Origin: Edaphobacter sp.
GTDB lineage: Bacteria > Acidobacteriota > Terriglobia > Terriglobales > Acidobacteriaceae
Direction: 5' to 3'
DNA length: 64,000 bases
Assembly: GCF_028283685.1 (NCBI RefSeq)
Contig: NZ_JAPWKF010000007.1
Location: 124,001-188,000, forward strand
The notes under the pieces were generated by a model. It made no database searches. It had not been told where the DNA came from and worked only from the letters and a program-made list of their open reading frames with translations. Of the stretch, positions 1,800-8,800 are shown in pieces. Made by a program: the position numbers and the translations under genes. Position 1 is the first letter of the stretch; every line of letters begins with the position of its first letter.

Positions 1800-3647
1800 A
1801 TGAAGAATGAGAAGACTGAAAGTACTGTCCTCACCGGCCCGCTGACCACCAACAAACACCTCATCCGCTGGGTCGAAAAGATGGCCGACCTGACGCAGCC
1901 GGAATCCATTCACTGGGTCGACGGCTCACAGGCCGAGTACGACGCTCTGTGCCAGGGGCTGATCGACGCCGGGACCTTCATCCGCCTCAACCAGAAGCTG
2001 TGGCCGGGCTGCTTCTACGCCCGCTCTGCGCCGAACGACGTCGCCCGCGTCGAAGACCGCACCTTCATCTGCTCTCTCTCCAAGGACAACGCCGGCCCGA
2101 CGAACAACTGGGAAGATCCCTTCGTCATGCGGAGAAAGCTCAAGCAGCTCTTCCGCGGCTCCATGCGCGGCCGCACAATGTATGTGCTCCCCTTTTCGAT
2201 GGGTCCTATCGGCTCGCCCATGTCGAAGATCGGCGTTCAGCTGACGGACTCGGCCTACGCCGTCGTCAACATGCGCATCATGGCCCGGATCGGCGCACCT
2301 GTCTTCGCCGAGATCGATAAGGACACCAAGCGCGTGGTGCCATGCATGCACACCGTAGGCGCTCCGCTGGCACCAGGCGAGCAGGATGTCTCGTGGCCCT
2401 GCAACGATGAAAAGTACATCGTCCACTTCCCGGAGACACGCGAGATCTGGAGCTACGGGTCAGGCTATGGTGGTAATGCCCTTCTGGGGAAGAAGTGCTT
2501 CGCTCTACGCATCGCCTCCAACATCGCCCGCGATGAAGGCTGGATGGCCGAGCATATGCTGATCCTCGGCGTCGAATCGCCCAGCCACGAGAAGACCTAC
2601 GTCGCTGCCGCCTTCCCCTCCGCATGCGGCAAGACCAACTTCGCCATGATGATTCCTCCAGCAGGCTTCGAGGGATGGAAGATCTGGACCGTGGGCGATG
2701 ACATCGCCTGGATCAGGCCCGACGCGACAGGCCAGCTTCGCGCCATCAATCCCGAAACCGGCTTCTTCGGTGTCGCTCCTGGCACTTCTCCCAAGACCAA
2801 TCCGAATGCAATGGCGACGCTCGCGAAGAACACCATCTTCACCAACGTCGCGCTAACGCCTGAAGGCGGCGTGTGGTGGGAGGGCATGACCGACCAGCCG
2901 CCCGCTGAGTGTCTCGACTGGCAGGGCAATCTGTGGACTCCCGCCATCGGCAAACAAACGGGCAAGCCAGCGGCTCACCCCAACGGACGCTTCACCGCAC
3001 CGGCCAGCCAGTGCCCGACCATCGATCCGGATTGGGAGACTCCTACCGGCGTCCCCATCTCAGCCATCATCTTTGGTGGGCGGCGCTCGACGACGATGCC
3101 GCTGGTCTATCAGGCCTTCAACTGGTCAGGCGGTGTCTACGCCGGGGCGACGATGGGCTCCGAGATGACTGCCGCCGCAGGCGGTACGCTGGGCAAAGTT
3201 CGACGCGACCCGATGGCCATGCTTCCCTTCTGCGGCTATCACATGGGCGACTACTTCCGGCACTGGATCAAGATGCAGCGCACCTTGAACTCCACGCCGC
3301 GCGTCTTTCACGTGAACTGGTTTCGTAAAGATGAGAACGGACGCTTTCTTTGGCCGGGGTTCTCGGAGAACATGCGCGTGCTGAAGTGGATCGTCGATCG
3401 AGTCCGCGGACGGGCTCAGGGCAAGGAGACGCCCATCGGATGGACGCCGTACTTCGAAGACATTCGCTGGGAGGGCATCGCAATGCCCCGCGAACGTCTG
3501 CATGCCATCTTCGATGAGTTACAGACAGTCGACCGCGCCGCCTGGCGCAAAGAGGTCATGGATCACGAAGAGCTGTTCCTGGCTCTCCATGACCACCTCC
3601 CGCCTGAGATGATCTATGAGCGCGAACTCCTGATCTGCCGTCTTTAG
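1800..3647 (+). CDS. pckG: Phosphoenolpyruvate carboxykinase (GTP)
   Basis: Catalyses oxaloacetate + GTP to PEP + GDP + CO2, the entry step of gluconeogenesis, in the cytosol. The 615-residue product has the normal length of the GTP class. The reactive-cysteine P-loop [12 protein letters not shown] lies at about residue 272, and [12 protein letters not shown] at about 424. [14 protein letters not shown] and [17 protein letters not shown] are the substrate-binding blocks of this family. I chose ATG 1800 because a GGGAG sequence sits about 12 nt upstream and the product then starts like other family members. An in-frame TTG at 1743 would add 19 unconserved residues. Confidence 0.95.
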
Positions 3648-3779
3648 CAATGCGGAGAGAATAAAAGGCAAAAATAAATCACGTAGCGACCGTCTATAGT
3701 ATTGATAAATAAGTATTTTCTATGTTAATCCCAATAAGGAAATCTTATGAGGGAAGACGGACATTTTTATTGATATTCC

Positions 3780-3808
3780 TTGACTCCCCTGTCCGTTGTC
3801 GCTATCTT
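3780..3808 (+). promoter_or_regulatory. Candidate sigma70 promoter of regulatory unit 1
   Basis: TTGACT at 3780-3785 and TATCTT at 3803-3808 are separated by 17 bp. Transcription would start near 3815 and run into the hairpin terminator at 3884-3926. The stretch 3648-3779 behind pckG is A+T-rich, and I see no gene in it. Confidence 0.5.
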
Positions 3809-3814
3809 TGTCGA

Positions 3815-3926
3815 GTGGCAAGACTCCCTTCGGGTTGAGTCGGTCATAGCGAAGTCCACCCACTTCGTTGCTTCAAATGGAATACCCACGCAACAGCCCC
3901 CACCGCGCTGCGTGGGTTTCCTTTTT
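3815..3926 (+). ncRNA. Candidate short structured RNA or leader (unit 1)
   Basis: Between a good promoter and a terminator lies about 110 nt with two local hairpins. GACTC (3822-3826) pairs with GAGTC (3837-3841) around a C-UUCG-G tetraloop, and CGAAGT (3850-3855) pairs with ACTTCG (3862-3867) around loop CCACCC, which could also pair with GTGG at 3815-3818. No convincing peptide is encoded; a 7-codon GTG reading frame begins at 3815. Its terminator stem is the same as the one in the following Cys-peptide unit. It could be an independent small RNA, a leader or a decayed duplicate of that unit. No known riboswitch class was recognised. Confidence 0.35.
3884..3926 (+). terminator. Intrinsic terminator, unit 1
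   Basis: ACCCACGCA (3884-3892) pairs perfectly with TGCGTGGGT (3909-3917), followed by a T-rich tract to 3926. The same nine-base stem recurs at 4099-4133. Confidence 0.7.
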
Positions 3927-3939
3927 AAGCGGTCCAGCC

Positions 3940-3968
3940 TTGACTCGCTCCCGGCAAAACAATAAACT
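3940..3968 (+). promoter_or_regulatory. Candidate sigma70 promoter of the Cys-peptide unit
   Basis: TTGACT at 3940-3945 and TAAACT at 3963-3968 are separated by exactly 17 bp. The predicted start point, 7-9 nt after the -10 box, falls at 3975-3977. This is on or just before the ATG at 3977, so the message would be leaderless. Confidence 0.6.
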
Positions 3969-3976
3969 TAGTATCA

Positions 3977-4066
3977 ATGGGATCGAAGAACATCGCGGCC
4001 AGCACCTGTTGCCTCTGTTGTATGGGCAGCTGTTGCTGTTGCTGCGTCGGACTCTCCCGCTTCTAA
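3977..4066 (+). CDS. Cysteine-rich leader peptide (29 aa, nine Cys)
   Basis: This short frame runs from ATG 3977 to TAA 4064-4066. It encodes MGSKNIAAST, then CCLCC, MGS, CCCCC and VGLSRF, so 9 of 29 residues are cysteine. There is no Shine-Dalgarno sequence, and a well-spaced promoter places the transcript start at the ATG, so translation is probably leaderless. A Rho-independent terminator (4099-4137) follows, then genes for a membrane peptide and a YeiH-family transporter. This matches amino-acid attenuation leaders and recalls the leaderless polycysteine peptides that control sulfur genes in actinobacteria. TGCGTCGG at 4043-4050, at the end of the Cys run, can pair at 7 of 8 positions with the 5' arm of the terminator, giving a possible antiterminator. 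Function is inferred; the frame, Cys run, promoter and terminator are seen directly. Confidence 0.7.
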   Translation: MGSKNIAASTCCLCCMGSCCCCCVGLSRF

Positions 4067-4098
4067 GCTGAAAAAAATCGCTTAGCAAGATTATCGGA

Positions 4099-4137
4099 AC
4101 CCACGCAAACGGCACCCCCGAAACTGCGTGGGTTTTT
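4099..4137 (+). terminator. Terminator/attenuator after the Cys peptide
   Basis: ACCCACGCA (4099-4107) pairs perfectly with TGCGTGGGT (4125-4133), followed by TTTTT to 4137. It lies 33 nt after the stop codon of the Cys-rich peptide and upstream of the transporter genes, where an attenuator would be expected. Confidence 0.7.
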
Positions 4138-4192
4138 CTATTGCCTCCGCGCAGGCCACCTCCTGAAGCAGACAACCAGAATCGAGAACCGG

Positions 4193-4309
4193 ATGGCACG
4201 CCCCGACTCCAGTACGAACCGCATCAATATCGACCTGATCGCCATTGCGATTGCTCTGACCGTCGCAGCCCTGATTCGGCTGAACATCATCCCGCCGGTA
4301 TCCTTCTAA
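4193..4309 (+). CDS. Small single-pass membrane peptide (38 aa)
   Basis: The frame from ATG 4193 to TAA 4307-4309 encodes a 38-residue peptide. Its N-terminus is polar (MARPDSSTNRINID), a hydrophobic helix follows (LIAIAIALTVAALIRL), and the tail is NIIPPVSF. It ends 13 nt before the start of the YeiH-family gene and sits after the attenuator, so both would be expressed together. The YeiH gene has no clear Shine-Dalgarno sequence, so translation of this peptide may carry ribosomes to it. It could be a small partner subunit of the transporter or only a coupling ORF. I know of no named family for it. Confidence 0.55.
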   Translation: MARPDSSTNRINIDLIAIAIALTVAALIRLNIIPPVSF

Positions 4310-4322
4310 GCATCCGCTGTTT

Positions 4323-5420
4323 ATGTCGGCCCACACGATTCCATCGCCAGTCTCGAACCAAAACCCCACACTCACGCAGCGGTTTCTGCGGGTTCTGCCG
4401 GGTATGGCTTTATTGTTTGGAATCGGCTTTCTTGGCAAGCTTCTGGAGCACACCTTCAAGCAGCTCCAGGCCGCGCATCCCACTCTTCCCCTTCCACACC
4501 TCGAATATGTTCTCTGGGCGATTCTGCTGGGCCTTGCAATCGGCAACACCGTTGGCCTGTCCAATGTCTTTCGCCCCGGAGTCGCGACCTACGAGCTTTG
4601 GCTGAAGCTCGGCATCGTCTTTGTCGGCGCGCGCTTCCTGTTGCAGGACATCCTCCACATCGGCGGCCTGGCGCTTGGCCTGGTTGCGGTGGAACTGGCT
4701 CTGTCACTCTCATTCATGCATCTGCTCGGCCGTATCTTCCGCCTTCCACCGAAGCTGACCAGCCTGCTTGCCATCGGTTCGAGCATCTGCGGCGTAACGG
4801 CGATTATGGCTGCGCAGGGAGCCATCGAGCCCGAGGAAGAAGATACCTCCACCGCCATCGCCGCGATTCTCACGCTGGGTGCGATTGCGCTCTTTACCTT
4901 TCCTGCGATCGGACACGCGCTGCACATGAGCCAGCAGGGATACGGCATGTGGGCCGGTCTTGCGGTCGACAACACCGCAGAATCGCTGGTAACGGGCGCT
5001 CTCTATGGTGAAGAGGCGGGACGGTGGACGGTGCTGGCGAAGACCGCGCGCTCCGGCTTCATCGGCTTCGTCGTGCTGGCTTACGCGGTGTACTGGTCTT
5101 CACGCGGGCTGGCTCCTGACGTAAAACACAAAGGCGTCTTTCTCTGGCGCAAGTTTCCGAAGTTCATCCTGGGCTTCCTCGCTCTTGCAATCCTTGCGAC
5201 CTCAGGATTTTTCTCACACAACCAGCTGACAAGCCTCGCCAATCTTTCCAAGTGGGCCTTCCTGCCTGCCTTTGCCGGCGTTGGCCTGCGTACCAACCTG
5301 CGCGACCTGACCAGCCAGGGCTGGCGGCCTTTGATCGTGGGCATTCTCGGCGAGATCGCCATCGCCCTGATCACGCTGGGCCTTGTGTACTGGAGCTATA
5401 ACCACGGAGTGGCACGGTGA
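4323..5420 (+). CDS. YeiH-family putative sulfate exporter
   Basis: This 365-residue polytopic protein belongs to the PF03601 (Cons_hypoth698, YeiH) family. It has about ten hydrophobic segments, the signature GSSICGVTAIMAAQGAI at about residues 157-173, and WAGLAVDNTAESLVTGALYG further on. The SICG element is diagnostic. The family is annotated as putative sulfate exporters, largely by association with sulfur genes; the real substrate and direction are unproven. The cysteine-rich leader upstream supports a sulfur-linked role. The start ATG at 4323 has no strong Shine-Dalgarno sequence. The stop TGA overlaps the GTG of a second Cys-containing mini-ORF. Confidence 0.88.
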   Translation: MSAHTIPSPVSNQNPTLTQRFLRVLPGMALLFGIGFLGKLLEHTFKQLQAAHPTLPLPHLEYVLWAILLGLAIGNTVGLSNVFRPGVATYELWLKLGIVFVGARFLLQDILHIGGLALGLVAVELALSLSFMHLLGRIFRLPPKLTSLLAIGSSICGVTAIMAAQGAIEPEEEDTSTAIAAILTLGAIALFTFPAIGHALHMSQQGYGMWAGLAVDNTAESLVTGALYGEEAGRWTVLAKTARSGFIGFVVLAYAVYWSSRGLAPDVKHKGVFLWRKFPKFILGFLALAILATSGFFSHNQLTSLANLSKWAFLPAFAGVGLRTNLRDLTSQGWRPLIVGILGEIAIALITLGLVYWSYNHGVAR

Positions 5421-5467
5421 TCCGTAGCACCTCCATCGCTGTTCGCTGTTGTTGTCGCCTGCCTTAG
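5417..5467 (+). CDS. Candidate second Cys-run leader peptide (16 aa)
   Basis: A GTG at 5417-5419 overlaps the YeiH-gene stop (GTGA) and opens a 16-codon frame, MIRSTSIAVRCCCRLP, ending with TAG at 5465-5467. Three consecutive TGT codons sit near its end. The frame lies between the YeiH gene and the TonB-dependent receptor whose ATG is at 5558. The overlap would let ribosomes finishing YeiH start here by reinitiation. Very short frames arise by chance, but a second Cys run in the same locus makes a regulatory role plausible. Only a weak hairpin follows (GAGAA...TTCTC, about 5471-5489), so any control may act on translation. Confidence 0.4.
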   Translation: MIRSTSIAVRCCCRLP

Positions 5468-5557
5468 CGCGAGAACCAGCAGTTTCTCTTTAACGCACGA
5501 ATCAATGTCCGCTCGCCGTAAGAGGTGAGTGTCCCTGCTTTTCTTCTGGAGTCCGCC

Positions 5558-8500
5558 ATGCAAATCTTTTTGCGCAGGATCACGCCTGCCCTGATCGTCT
5601 TTCTTTATTTGTTTACTCCCATCTCTCTGCGTGCGCAGGTTGTCGGCGGCAGCATCTCCGGCACCGTCACGGACCCCAGCAGCGCTGCTCTCTCCGGGGC
5701 GACCGTAGTTGTCCATAACGATGAGACAGGCAGTGAACGCCGCCTTACGACCGGCGACGATGGACGCTTCTCTGCGCCATCCATCACGATCGGGACGTAC
5801 ACGGTATCTGCAAGCCACGACGGCTTCACGCCGCAGCATCGCACCGGCATCGGACTCACCGTAGGGCAGAGCCGCCAAGTCGATCTGCAGCTAACGGTCA
5901 ACTCCGTCGAGCAACAGGTCACCGTCGAGGACACACCCGGCGTCGTCAATCTTTCGACGCAGCAGACCTCGGGGCTGATCGACGAGCGCCAGATCAAGCA
6001 GCTTCCCCTGAACGGGCGCAGCTACGATCAACTCGTTACGCTGAACCCGGCCGTGGTGAACTACACCGGCCAGCGCTCCGGCTCGATCGGCACCTCGAAC
6101 TCATCAGTCGGCAACATGTATGCGATCTCTGGCCGCAGGCCGCAGGACAATATCTTCCTCCTGAACGGCATCGAGTACACCGGCGCATCGCTGATCAACC
6201 TGACTCCTGGAGGCACCAGCGGGCAACTGCTTGGTGTCGACGCGGTGCGCGAGTTTAACGTCGTCACCGACAGCTACTCTGCCAGCTACGGCAAGCGGCA
6301 GGGAGCGCAGATCTCCATCGTGACCGCCTCGGGCACCAACCAGGTGCATGGCTCGGTGTACGAGTTTCTGCGCAACTCAAAGCTCGACGCACGTAACTAC
6401 TTCGACCAGGCAAAGATTCCGGAGTTTCAGCGCAATAATTTCGGCGGATCGCTGGGCGGTCCCATTCGTAAAGACAAGTTGCTTCTGTTTGCGAACTACG
6501 AGGGCTACCGGCAGAATCTCGGTCTTTCGAACGTCACCTTTGTCCCCGATACGCAGGCAAGGCAGGGCTATCTACCCGATCCGGCCAATCCAAGCGGAGC
6601 GCGTAAGAACTATGGCATCGCACCTGGCGTAGCGCCGTTGCTCAACCTCTGGCCTGAGCAGAACGGCGCTTATCTGCTCGATGCGAATGGCAAGCAGACC
6701 GGCATTGGCCTTGCCTACTCGAACCCGATGCAGCGCATACGCGAGGACTTCGGCACCACGCGGTTCGACTACAACGTAACGCCGAAGGACCTCTTCTTCG
6801 CGGTCTACACGGTGGACGACTCCACAGCCGATACGCCGACACAGAACCCCCTGGCCTCCATCAACGAAGACCTGCGCGAGCAGGTAACAAGCCTTCAGGA
6901 GCAGCATGTCTTCTCTCCCCGGCTGCTGAATACGGCGCGCTTCGGCTACTCTCGGGCGTCGTTCTTCTTCCTTGGCTCATCTTCGCCACTTGATGGAGCG
7001 ACGGTACCCGGATGGGTCTCCGGCAAGCCTGTCGGGGCCATCGTTATTGCAGGGTCGACAGCCTCTAACGGATCGTCGCAGATCACCGGAGCAGGCGCCA
7101 ACGTTGGCTCGAACAATGCGACCACACGCAACCTGTTCACCTTCGACGACCATATCTTCTGGACGTTTGGGCGCCACCAGATTGAGGCCGGCGGCTGGAT
7201 CCAGCGCATGCAGTCGAACGACAGCCTGGCGCAGAACCAGTTTGGACAAGCCTCATTCGCTTCGCTGACGACCTTCCTTCAGGGCACAGTAAAGACCTTC
7301 ACCGTCGTTCCAGCGCCCACCAAGCTGGGATGGCGTTCGTGGATGGGAGCAGCCTACATCGAAGACACCATGCACCTGACACCCCGCCTGGAGATTCGCG
7401 CCGGCCTGCGCATGGAGTCGACCAATGGCTTCAATGAAGTGCAGGGACGCGCGGCCAATTACCTCTTCACAAACGGAGTCATCGATACCAACCCAACTGT
7501 CGGCAACTCCCCGCTGACGAACAACCGCGCGAAGTTTCTGCCTGCGCCTCGGGTCGGCGTGGCCTGGGATGTCTTCGGCGATGGAAAGACAAGCATCCGC
7601 GGCGGATTCGGTCTGCACTACTCTCTACTCGACAATCTGAACTATCGTGTCGACCAGGCCGCGCCGTTCAACACGACGCTGTCACTCTCCAACGTCGCCG
7701 TCTCCAGCCTGAACATCAACTCGTCGACGCAACCGTCTGCCGGGACATTGATCTCGCCGTCTACAGTACAGACCGATATTGCGACGCCGACGGTAGCCTC
7801 GTGGAGCCTGCACATCGAGCAGCAGATTGCGCCGAATACGTCCCTGACGCTGGGCTACATCGGTTCGCACGGTTACAACCAGGTTCTCTCCGCCGACCTC
7901 AACGAACCGGAGGCCACGGTTGTCAACGGACGAATCTACTACCCAACGACGACCAAGGCGAATCCTGCGGTTGCGAATACAACGTCGTGGATCTCGAAGG
8001 GCATGAGCAACTACAACGGCCTCGTCGTCGACGTGCGCCACAGCCTGACTCGAGGTCTGCAGGTGCGCGGCAATTACACCTTCTCAAAGAACCTCGACAA
8101 CGGCTCGGCCTGGAACACCAGCGTCTCTGCAAACACACCGGCCTTCGTCTCCTACCCTGCCGATCCCTCCATCGACTATGGACGTGCTGCGACAGACATC
8201 CACCACATCGTCGCCATCAACGGCAGCTACGATCTCCCCTTCGGTGCAGGTCACCTGATTGGATCGAACCTGAGCGGCATCGCTAACCGCGCCGTCAGCG
8301 GTTGGACAGCGAGCACGATCGTGACGCTGCAATCGGGCTTTCCCTTCTCGCCGCAGCTGGGTTACAACCCGACGGGTTCCGGCGATACACGCAATCCGGT
8401 TCGGCCGGATATCAACCCCAACTTCCACGGCAATCTGTATCCACGCACAGTACAGCAGTATTTCAACCCGAATGCGTTTCTGGCACCGGCCTATGGCACC

Positions 8501-8800
8501 GTCGGCAACCTTGGCCGCGATACGCTGACCGGCCCGGGACTGGCAAACGTCGATATCTCACTGCTCAAGGCGACGCACATCACCGAACGCGTGCGTGCGC
8601 AATTCCGCGCAGAGTTTTTCAATGCCCTCAACCGTGCCAACTTCGCTACGCCCAATCCCGTGGTCTTCTCCTCGGGGCCCACTCAGGGAACATCCTCGAA
8701 CCAGACGGCAGCCATCGTTGCCAGCCCTACTGCCGGAGTCGTCACAGCTACAGCAACCACCTCGCGACAGATTCAGTTTGGCCTGAAGCTGTTGTTCTAA
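5558..8800 (+). CDS. Oar-like TonB-dependent outer membrane receptor
   Basis: This 1080-residue protein starts at ATG 5558 with GGAG 6 nt upstream. It has a signal peptide (MQIFLRRITPALIVFLYLF, cleavage likely after SLRA). Next comes a carboxypeptidase-regulatory-like domain (about residues 28-110, GSISGTVTDPSSAALSGATV), then a plug domain with RQIKQLPLNGRSYDQLVTL, and a long beta-barrel ending in QIQFGLKLLF, with the terminal aromatic residue typical of outer membrane barrels. Acidobacteria carry many such receptors, mostly assumed to import glycans or metal chelates. Here it follows a YeiH-family gene and a Cys-run mini-ORF, so a sulfur compound is a possible substrate; this is inference only. 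No TonB box was identified. Confidence 0.9.
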   Translation: MQIFLRRITPALIVFLYLFTPISLRAQVVGGSISGTVTDPSSAALSGATVVVHNDETGSERRLTTGDDGRFSAPSITIGTYTVSASHDGFTPQHRTGIGLTVGQSRQVDLQLTVNSVEQQVTVEDTPGVVNLSTQQTSGLIDERQIKQLPLNGRSYDQLVTLNPAVVNYTGQRSGSIGTSNSSVGNMYAISGRRPQDNIFLLNGIEYTGASLINLTPGGTSGQLLGVDAVREFNVVTDSYSASYGKRQGAQISIVTASGTNQVHGSVYEFLRNSKLDARNYFDQAKIPEFQRNNFGGSLGGPIRKDKLLLFANYEGYRQNLGLSNVTFVPDTQARQGYLPDPANPSGARKNYGIAPGVAPLLNLWPEQNGAYLLDANGKQTGIGLAYSNPMQRIREDFGTTRFDYNVTPKDLFFAVYTVDDSTADTPTQNPLASINEDLREQVTSLQEQHVFSPRLLNTARFGYSRASFFFLGSSSPLDGATVPGWVSGKPVGAIVIAGSTASNGSSQITGAGANVGSNNATTRNLFTFDDHIFWTFGRHQIEAGGWIQRMQSNDSLAQNQFGQASFASLTTFLQGTVKTFTVVPAPTKLGWRSWMGAAYIEDTMHLTPRLEIRAGLRMESTNGFNEVQGRAANYLFTNGVIDTNPTVGNSPLTNNRAKFLPAPRVGVAWDVFGDGKTSIRGGFGLHYSLLDNLNYRVDQAAPFNTTLSLSNVAVSSLNINSSTQPSAGTLISPSTVQTDIATPTVASWSLHIEQQIAPNTSLTLGYIGSHGYNQVLSADLNEPEATVVNGRIYYPTTTKANPAVANTTSWISKGMSNYNGLVVDVRHSLTRGLQVRGNYTFSKNLDNGSAWNTSVSANTPAFVSYPADPSIDYGRAATDIHHIVAINGSYDLPFGAGHLIGSNLSGIANRAVSGWTASTIVTLQSGFPFSPQLGYNPTGSGDTRNPVRPDINPNFHGNLYPRTVQQYFNPNAFLAPAYGTVGNLGRDTLTGPGLANVDISLLKATHITERVRAQFRAEFFNALNRANFATPNPVVFSSGPTQGTSSNQTAAIVASPTAGVVTATATTSRQIQFGLKLLF

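Follow-up and report, generated by a model that had tools for sequence, protein, structure and literature searches.

The region upstream of a yeiH-family transporter gene in Edaphobacter (Terriglobia, Acidobacteriaceae) very probably encodes a transcription attenuator of the ribosome-mediated kind, which would sense charged tRNA-Cys and is one of a set placed on sulfur-acquisition genes in this family. The element lies in the window, the whole stretch of 64,000 nucleotides that was analysed, and all of its parts are on the forward strand. Support for this reading comes entirely from comparative sequence analysis: the parts present at the locus, their conservation and spacing, covariation in the terminator, and the presence of Cys-rich leaders ahead of further sulfur operons. 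Its main interest is the gene set found under Cys leaders and what this implies for yeiH.

The promoter, TTGACT-17-TAAACT (3940-3968), has its -35 element at 3940-3945 and its -10 element at 3963-3968, separated by a 17-nt spacer. The ATG of the leader frame follows at 3977, leaving 8 nt after the -10 element, and transcription is predicted to start at or just before this ATG. The frame (3977-4066), taken from the sequence and the ORF translation, has 29 codons and encodes MGSKNIAASTCCLCCMGSCCCCCVGLSRF, a peptide of 29 residues with nine Cys, in which CCLCC corresponds to 4007-4021 and CCCCC to 4031-4045. An intrinsic terminator at 4098-4138 folds at -18.3 kcal/mol, a value matched by 0 of 200 shuffles, and its 5' arm is the predicted partner of an antiterminator strand. 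Two marks of an attenuator are therefore present at the locus, namely a short frame with a Cys codon run close to the operon start and an intrinsic terminator ahead of the structural genes. Promoter and nine-Cys frame, as well as a terminator between the leader and the transporter genes, had been claimed in the preliminary description, and the sequence and the fold energies confirmed them. A scanner requiring at least three Cys per five codons, a terminator, and a promoter whose end lies 4-12 nt ahead of the start found this site as the single one on both strands of the window and none in ten shuffles of it. Rfam gave five weak matches in region 3000-7000, none reaching the gathering score of its family.

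By eye, a second promoter-like site, TTGACT-17-TATCTT, was noticed at 3780-3808, with a terminator after it (region 3780-3924). The stem of this upstream terminator (3885-3919) is nearly identical to the attenuator stem (4100-4135), and the window contains no other such stems. This promoter and terminator may belong to a small RNA, or they may be what is left of an old leader copy.

In the folds of the leader RNAs, a long hairpin spanning the frame is followed by a small one at the stop codon and then by the terminator. At our locus, the leader hairpin (1:2) spans 3979-4058 (z -2.41) and would sequester the antiterminator strand if the leader is untranslated, and the small hairpin containing the stop codon lies at 4060-4089. 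The preliminary description had proposed an antiterminator formed by 4043-4050, and TGCGTCGG at these positions indeed pairs with CCCACGCA of the terminator 5' arm at 7 of 8 positions. However, the helix had been given too short: when we folded 4022-4118, the RNA left free by a stalled ribosome, the alternative helix joined 4029-4055 with 4096-4113 around the stop-codon hairpin. In 46 of the 50 leaders measured, exactly 20 nt separate the GCG core of the antiterminator from the stop codon, although the leader peptides vary from 25 to 34 residues. A ribosome of usual footprint size at the stop codon would cover the 3' half of the antiterminator strand, and one at the first Cys codons would leave that half uncovered. 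With this footprint size, the stop codon is placed for masking of the antiterminator strand by the ribosome.

From these features we infer how stalling and antitermination might proceed in the cell. The transcript would start at or beside the leader AUG. When cysteine is sufficient, the ribosome would translate the whole frame, whose stop codon lies 20 nt downstream of the GCG core, and mask the antiterminator strand, so that the terminator forms and transcription ends. When charged tRNA-Cys is short, the ribosome would stall on the first Cys codons and melt the leader hairpin, and the freed antiterminator strand would pair with the terminator 5' arm, allowing RNA polymerase to continue. Read-through would then extend into a small membrane peptide gene, yeiH and probably an outer-membrane receptor gene.

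We assessed conservation of the leader through a YeiH protein search, which gave 42 related loci, mostly from Edaphobacter, Granulicella, Terriglobus and unclassified Acidobacteria, with one from Bacillota; the window made 43. A Cys-rich leader was present within 700 nt upstream of yeiH in 35 of the 43 loci and was not found within this distance in L017, L032, L035-L038, L042 and L043. This count includes the variant leader of L041, which was left out of the alignment. Further genomes, partly of the same strains, brought the collection to 69 leaders, of which 51 were distinct after 18 duplicates were dropped. L216 was counted as a yeiH leader although yeiH was not found in its 981-base region (yeiH was present in 35 of 36 checked regions). 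All 51 distinct leaders had TTGAC and 50 had a 17-nt spacer; the -10 element ended 6-11 nt before the start codon, and none of the 51 had a Shine-Dalgarno-like motif. The script sought promoters within fixed limits, so the evidence lies in the narrow spacing and not in promoter presence. The promoter spacing and the absence of Shine-Dalgarno-like motifs predict a leaderless start, with the mRNA beginning at or next to the leader AUG. Cys codons in the leaders were TGT in 241 cases and TGC in 159, compared with 4 TGT and 34 TGC in the pooled yeiH genes. An RNA model of the leader matched 14 of 396 genomes of the phylum and 52 of 398 of the family (E ≤ 0.01), and seven matches, six of them weak, were ahead of genes other than yeiH. 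Conservation had been set beforehand as one of the checks on which the proposal could fail, and relatives proved to share the Cys run and the terminator as well as the promoter spacing and the alternative pairing. That a Cys-rich frame and a terminator merely happen to precede yeiH is thus extremely improbable, given this recurrence, the single site per 64 kb with none in the shuffles, and the lack of any promoter plus Cys frame near SulP and CysT-like genes, of which 20 loci were surveyed.

Several Cys frames were not accepted as leaders: those in L032, L035 and L038, those in the yeiH regions L055, L084, L103, L048 and L083, and, in L045 and L049, those at an upstream distance of about 840 nt. 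Among 40 yeiH regions of the same family, 12 carried this leader type, 11 a different type (type 2) and one a third type; no Cys leader was accepted in 20 yeiH regions of other families. In the different type, CCC stands directly before the last codon or the stop. The yeiH paralogue regions L047, L051-L059 and L063 were seen to have a different leader of this kind, for example MTVFRQPAPLHLMPTRCCCS, with Cys codons immediately before the stop, followed by the same small ORF as at our locus. By eye, no terminator was evident after these type-2 leaders. The second yeiH copy of our own genome had no Cys leader that we could find. In L043, a Cys leader with its own promoter and terminator was located about 1.6 kb upstream of yeiH, before a rhodanese-like gene (named by eye); it was first taken for a weak background frame and then counted as a leader. 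In L043 and L001/L152, yeiH of another type lies behind rhodanese-like and heme-binding-like genes (both named by eye), and in L043 this longer yeiH operon begins with the Cys leader.

The terminator and the antiterminator were evaluated separately across the leaders, with three group-C leaders and L023 left out of the pair counts for both. Terminator covariation was clear in group A, with 15 two-sided cells and 0 of 500 shuffles as high; in group B, 100% of the cells were paired and 2 of 500 shuffles were as high. Directly 3' of the stem core, 42 of 50 leaders have C[AG]GC, which stands opposite GCUG of the Cys codons. In the group-A terminator as drawn, the purine of C[AG]GC bulges out, and termination alone offers no explanation for this bulge.

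In most leaders, the later Cys codons paired with the terminator 5' arm when the RNA was folded without the ribosome-covered part and before the terminator 3' arm. In the antiterminator register 87.3% and 85.3% of cells were paired, compared with 13-47% in slid registers. The pairing was stronger than a flank-shuffled null (mean z -2.14; p ≤ 0.05 in 30 of 50 leaders). Repeat tests with anchored 21-nt windows gave z -2.50 against whole-arm shuffles (36 of 50 leaders) and z -1.45 against 46 unrelated terminators, with 17 of 50 leaders within the best 5%. L205, whose T-run falls outside the search pattern, was left out of the flank and arm-null pairing tests and of the spacing measurements. The first versions of the last two tests, with longer windows, had given z -0.45 (11 of 50) and +0.66 (0 of 50), respectively; in these the arms were set from the first hairpin loop, a placement judged wrong but not case by case, and L033 was left out. 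Compared with synonymous recodings, the leader hairpin had a mean z of -1.53 (p ≤ 0.05 in 12 of 34 leaders), and the antiterminator was not stronger (mean z -0.32; p ≤ 0.05 in 4 of 34). Cognate arms exceeded the row median of non-cognate arms in only 18 of 34 leaders. These last two tests gave the antiterminator no support, probably because the Cys codons themselves provide the complementarity. Changes in the antiterminator were one-sided only in group A, and group B had two two-sided cells, not beyond shuffles, so that compensation did not exceed chance. Pairing was weak in L039, L216, L023 and L021, and RNAalifold on MAFFT alignments of the leaders gave little signal. In the complete RNA after a stall, the terminator and not the antiterminator was the most stable structure in 27 of 34 leaders, including that of the window, indicating that antitermination must depend on the order of folding.

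We then considered Cys leaders on other sulfur genes, noting that most leader searches began from sulfur genes. Our genome has three Cys leaders, on yeiH, a PF01077 reductase gene and cysD. The second of them, first met as a weak match (E 5.65), consists of TTGACG-17-TAGCCT, MVYKYANSLDCRMCCCGRVFGVSAFLLR and a terminator, followed by the PF01077 reductase gene, whose NCBIfam matches are below cut-off and whose sequence does not separate sulfite from nitrite reductases. In 30 loci we surveyed the sequence ahead of the best PF01077 gene and found a sense Cys frame in 17 of the 20 loci from the same genus (antisense 3), in 7 of the 9 from a sister family (antisense 0) and in the one from another family. 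A promoter-based scan of these loci added L123 and L134, with L141 still lacking a Cys leader; some sister-family frames are weak (L126 and L131) and may be due to chance. Upstream of PF01507 genes (cysD/H), a sense Cys frame was present in 15 of 22 loci (antisense 7) and, in a further set, in 3 of 8 (antisense 0). In three of the antisense cases, a receptor gene that has a leader of its own lies in divergent orientation. The cysD leader of our genome is MVLIAMRACCCCRSISCPCMRCCR at C1:892008, after which no terminator was found. Among the matches in family genomes, single leaders preceded cysD-cysN in L160, a PF01077 reductase gene in L161 and a sulfatase gene in L158. Receptor genes stood behind a Cys leader in L155, L157 and L159, and the L157 receptor adjoins an alkanesulfonate-monooxygenase-like gene. 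In L119 (G202), a Cys leader and terminator were located ahead of a peroxiredoxin gene (PF00578). In L155 and L173, two successive Cys frames were noticed before the receptor, the second (MNCFFSNSMCPGRTTRCCCRCPRPVAV in L155, for example) lying past the terminator of the first. In L154, a gene that by eye resembles a methionine synthase gene is located further downstream. The preliminary description had proposed an amino-acid attenuator; unrelated Cys-run leaders on sulfite-reductase-like and cysD/H operons agree with what this idea predicted, and the wider regulon is what it had missed. Sulfur genes read out by Cys codons would offer a testable mechanism of sulfur control in a widespread soil group.

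The same leaders bear on whether the peptide acts as a product, for example as a metal-binding or stalling Cys-rich peptide, with no sensing of Cys-tRNA. Residues other than Cys are also kept within each leader group, as such a peptide would require. However, leaders of different operons have Cys runs in common and little else, and most of the genes that they precede are sulfur genes. Moreover, the shared residues of the yeiH leaders overlap paired RNA segments, indicating that RNA constraint accounts for part of their conservation. We consider a peptide product very unlikely.

Downstream of the attenuator, the first gene is a small ORF at 4193-4309, listed between the terminator and yeiH, which encodes 38 residues with one predicted transmembrane stretch and has no Pfam or NCBIfam match. 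A similar one-helix ORF precedes yeiH in 41 of 43 loci, also in places where no Cys leader was found, and precedes the second yeiH copy of our genome as well; its C-terminal pattern is D..A...ALI.AALIR......[WF]. The one-helix product may be a transporter subunit. The yeiH gene itself (4323-5420) encodes a product matching PF03601 with 244.8 bits (cut-off 24.5), and TIGR00698 with 120.1 bits, below its cut-off of 232.6. A second Cys frame, VIRSTSIAVRCCCRLP (5417-5467), overlaps the yeiH stop codon. Of the 43 loci, 12 have such a frame listed directly after yeiH, and each of these 12 is one of the 24 loci in which a receptor motif follows. At our locus, an outer-membrane beta-barrel receptor-like gene follows at 5558-8800 (ORF listed from 5525; PF25183 and PF13620), and its product is 71% identical to that of L159:2336-5668, a gene behind its own Cys leader. 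Given the second Cys frame at the yeiH stop and the kinship to the L159 receptor, the transcription unit probably comprises the small ORF, yeiH and the receptor gene.

This second Cys frame could also fit cysteine control that is mainly translational, in which a stalled ribosome changes access to, or couples with, the next ribosome-binding site and the terminator is secondary; the cysD and type-2 yeiH leaders, after which no terminator was detected, point the same way. At our locus, however, the terminator is strong and covarying, and the core-to-stop spacing fits transcription attenuation, making mainly translational control improbable here. It may apply to other members of the leader set.

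We also considered what YeiH might transport. Sulfite resistance in Salmonella depends mainly on YeiH, for which no transport function has been established (PMC12880088). If cysteine shortage induces yeiH, its product could import a sulfur source, or it could protect the cell from the sulfite that assimilation generates. SulP was present in 15 of 41 relatives and CysT above cut-off in 1 of 41, with weaker permease matches in 40 of 41. G049 and G217, both 99% complete, had neither SulP nor such a CysT but carried PF01507 genes and yeiH with its leader. Since the permease search was limited to SulP and CysT-like proteins and our own genome has two SulP genes, import by YeiH is offered as a hypothesis. 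Tentatively, and as something possible rather than probable, we suggest that sulfur acquisition in Terriglobia is under the general control of leaderless Cys-codon attenuators, covering sulfate activation, sulfite reduction, the outer-membrane receptor and YeiH, and that YeiH, its one-helix partner and the receptor form a sulfate/sulfite uptake route in genomes without known sulfate permeases. If this is true, 'sulfate exporter' would be the wrong name for YeiH in this clade. The leaders also offer a way into the function of yeiH, be it import or export, and into that of an outer-membrane receptor family and a small membrane peptide with no family name.

In attenuators of the trp/his type, 1:2, 2:3 and 3:4 pairing is combined with a codon run for the end product of the pathway. 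The Edaphobacter element has the end-product codon run and would share this pairing logic, but differs in a leader without a Shine-Dalgarno motif, in the proposed sensing of cysteine and in an additional hairpin that contains the stop codon. Joining a predicted leaderless start to a terminator switch of the classical type raises the question of how leaderless initiation is timed against transcription.

The preliminary description knew of no such element in Acidobacteriota, and our search of the open-licence literature, outside which most subscription papers lie, likewise found none described. Two related cases are known from other bacteria. The uORFC-8-2 motif lies upstream of cysS in Rhodobacterales, and ribosome-mediated attenuation by Cys-tRNA has been proposed for it (PMC8632094). 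It resembles our element in having tandem Cys codons in an upstream ORF followed by an intrinsic terminator; in contrast, it has two Cys codons, belongs to a different class and targets cysS (cysteinyl-tRNA synthetase), where our locus has yeiH downstream, and the cited text mentions no leaderless start (PMC8632094). In mycobacteria, leaderless polycysteine short ORFs have been reported (Canestrari et al. 2020, as cited in PMC9031893 and PMC13236596), with candidate leaders described earlier (PMC1262725). Like the Edaphobacter frame, these short frames carry contiguous Cys codons and precede sulfur genes; they are also leaderless and respond to cysteine supply (PMC9031893, PMC13236596), as is predicted for the Edaphobacter element. 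According to the passages cited, however, the mycobacterial leaders act by translational attenuation (PMC9031893, PMC13236596), and no conserved terminator hairpins were found for them (PMC1262725), whereas the terminator present at our locus is not what translation-only control would have. The Edaphobacter element adds an intrinsic terminator and a predicted alternative pairing, in another phylum and on yeiH and other genes. The element is thus of a kind already known from mycobacteria and Rhodobacterales, and the phylum, the regulon, and the joint occurrence of a predicted leaderless start and an intrinsic terminator appear to be new with respect to the open-licence literature searched.
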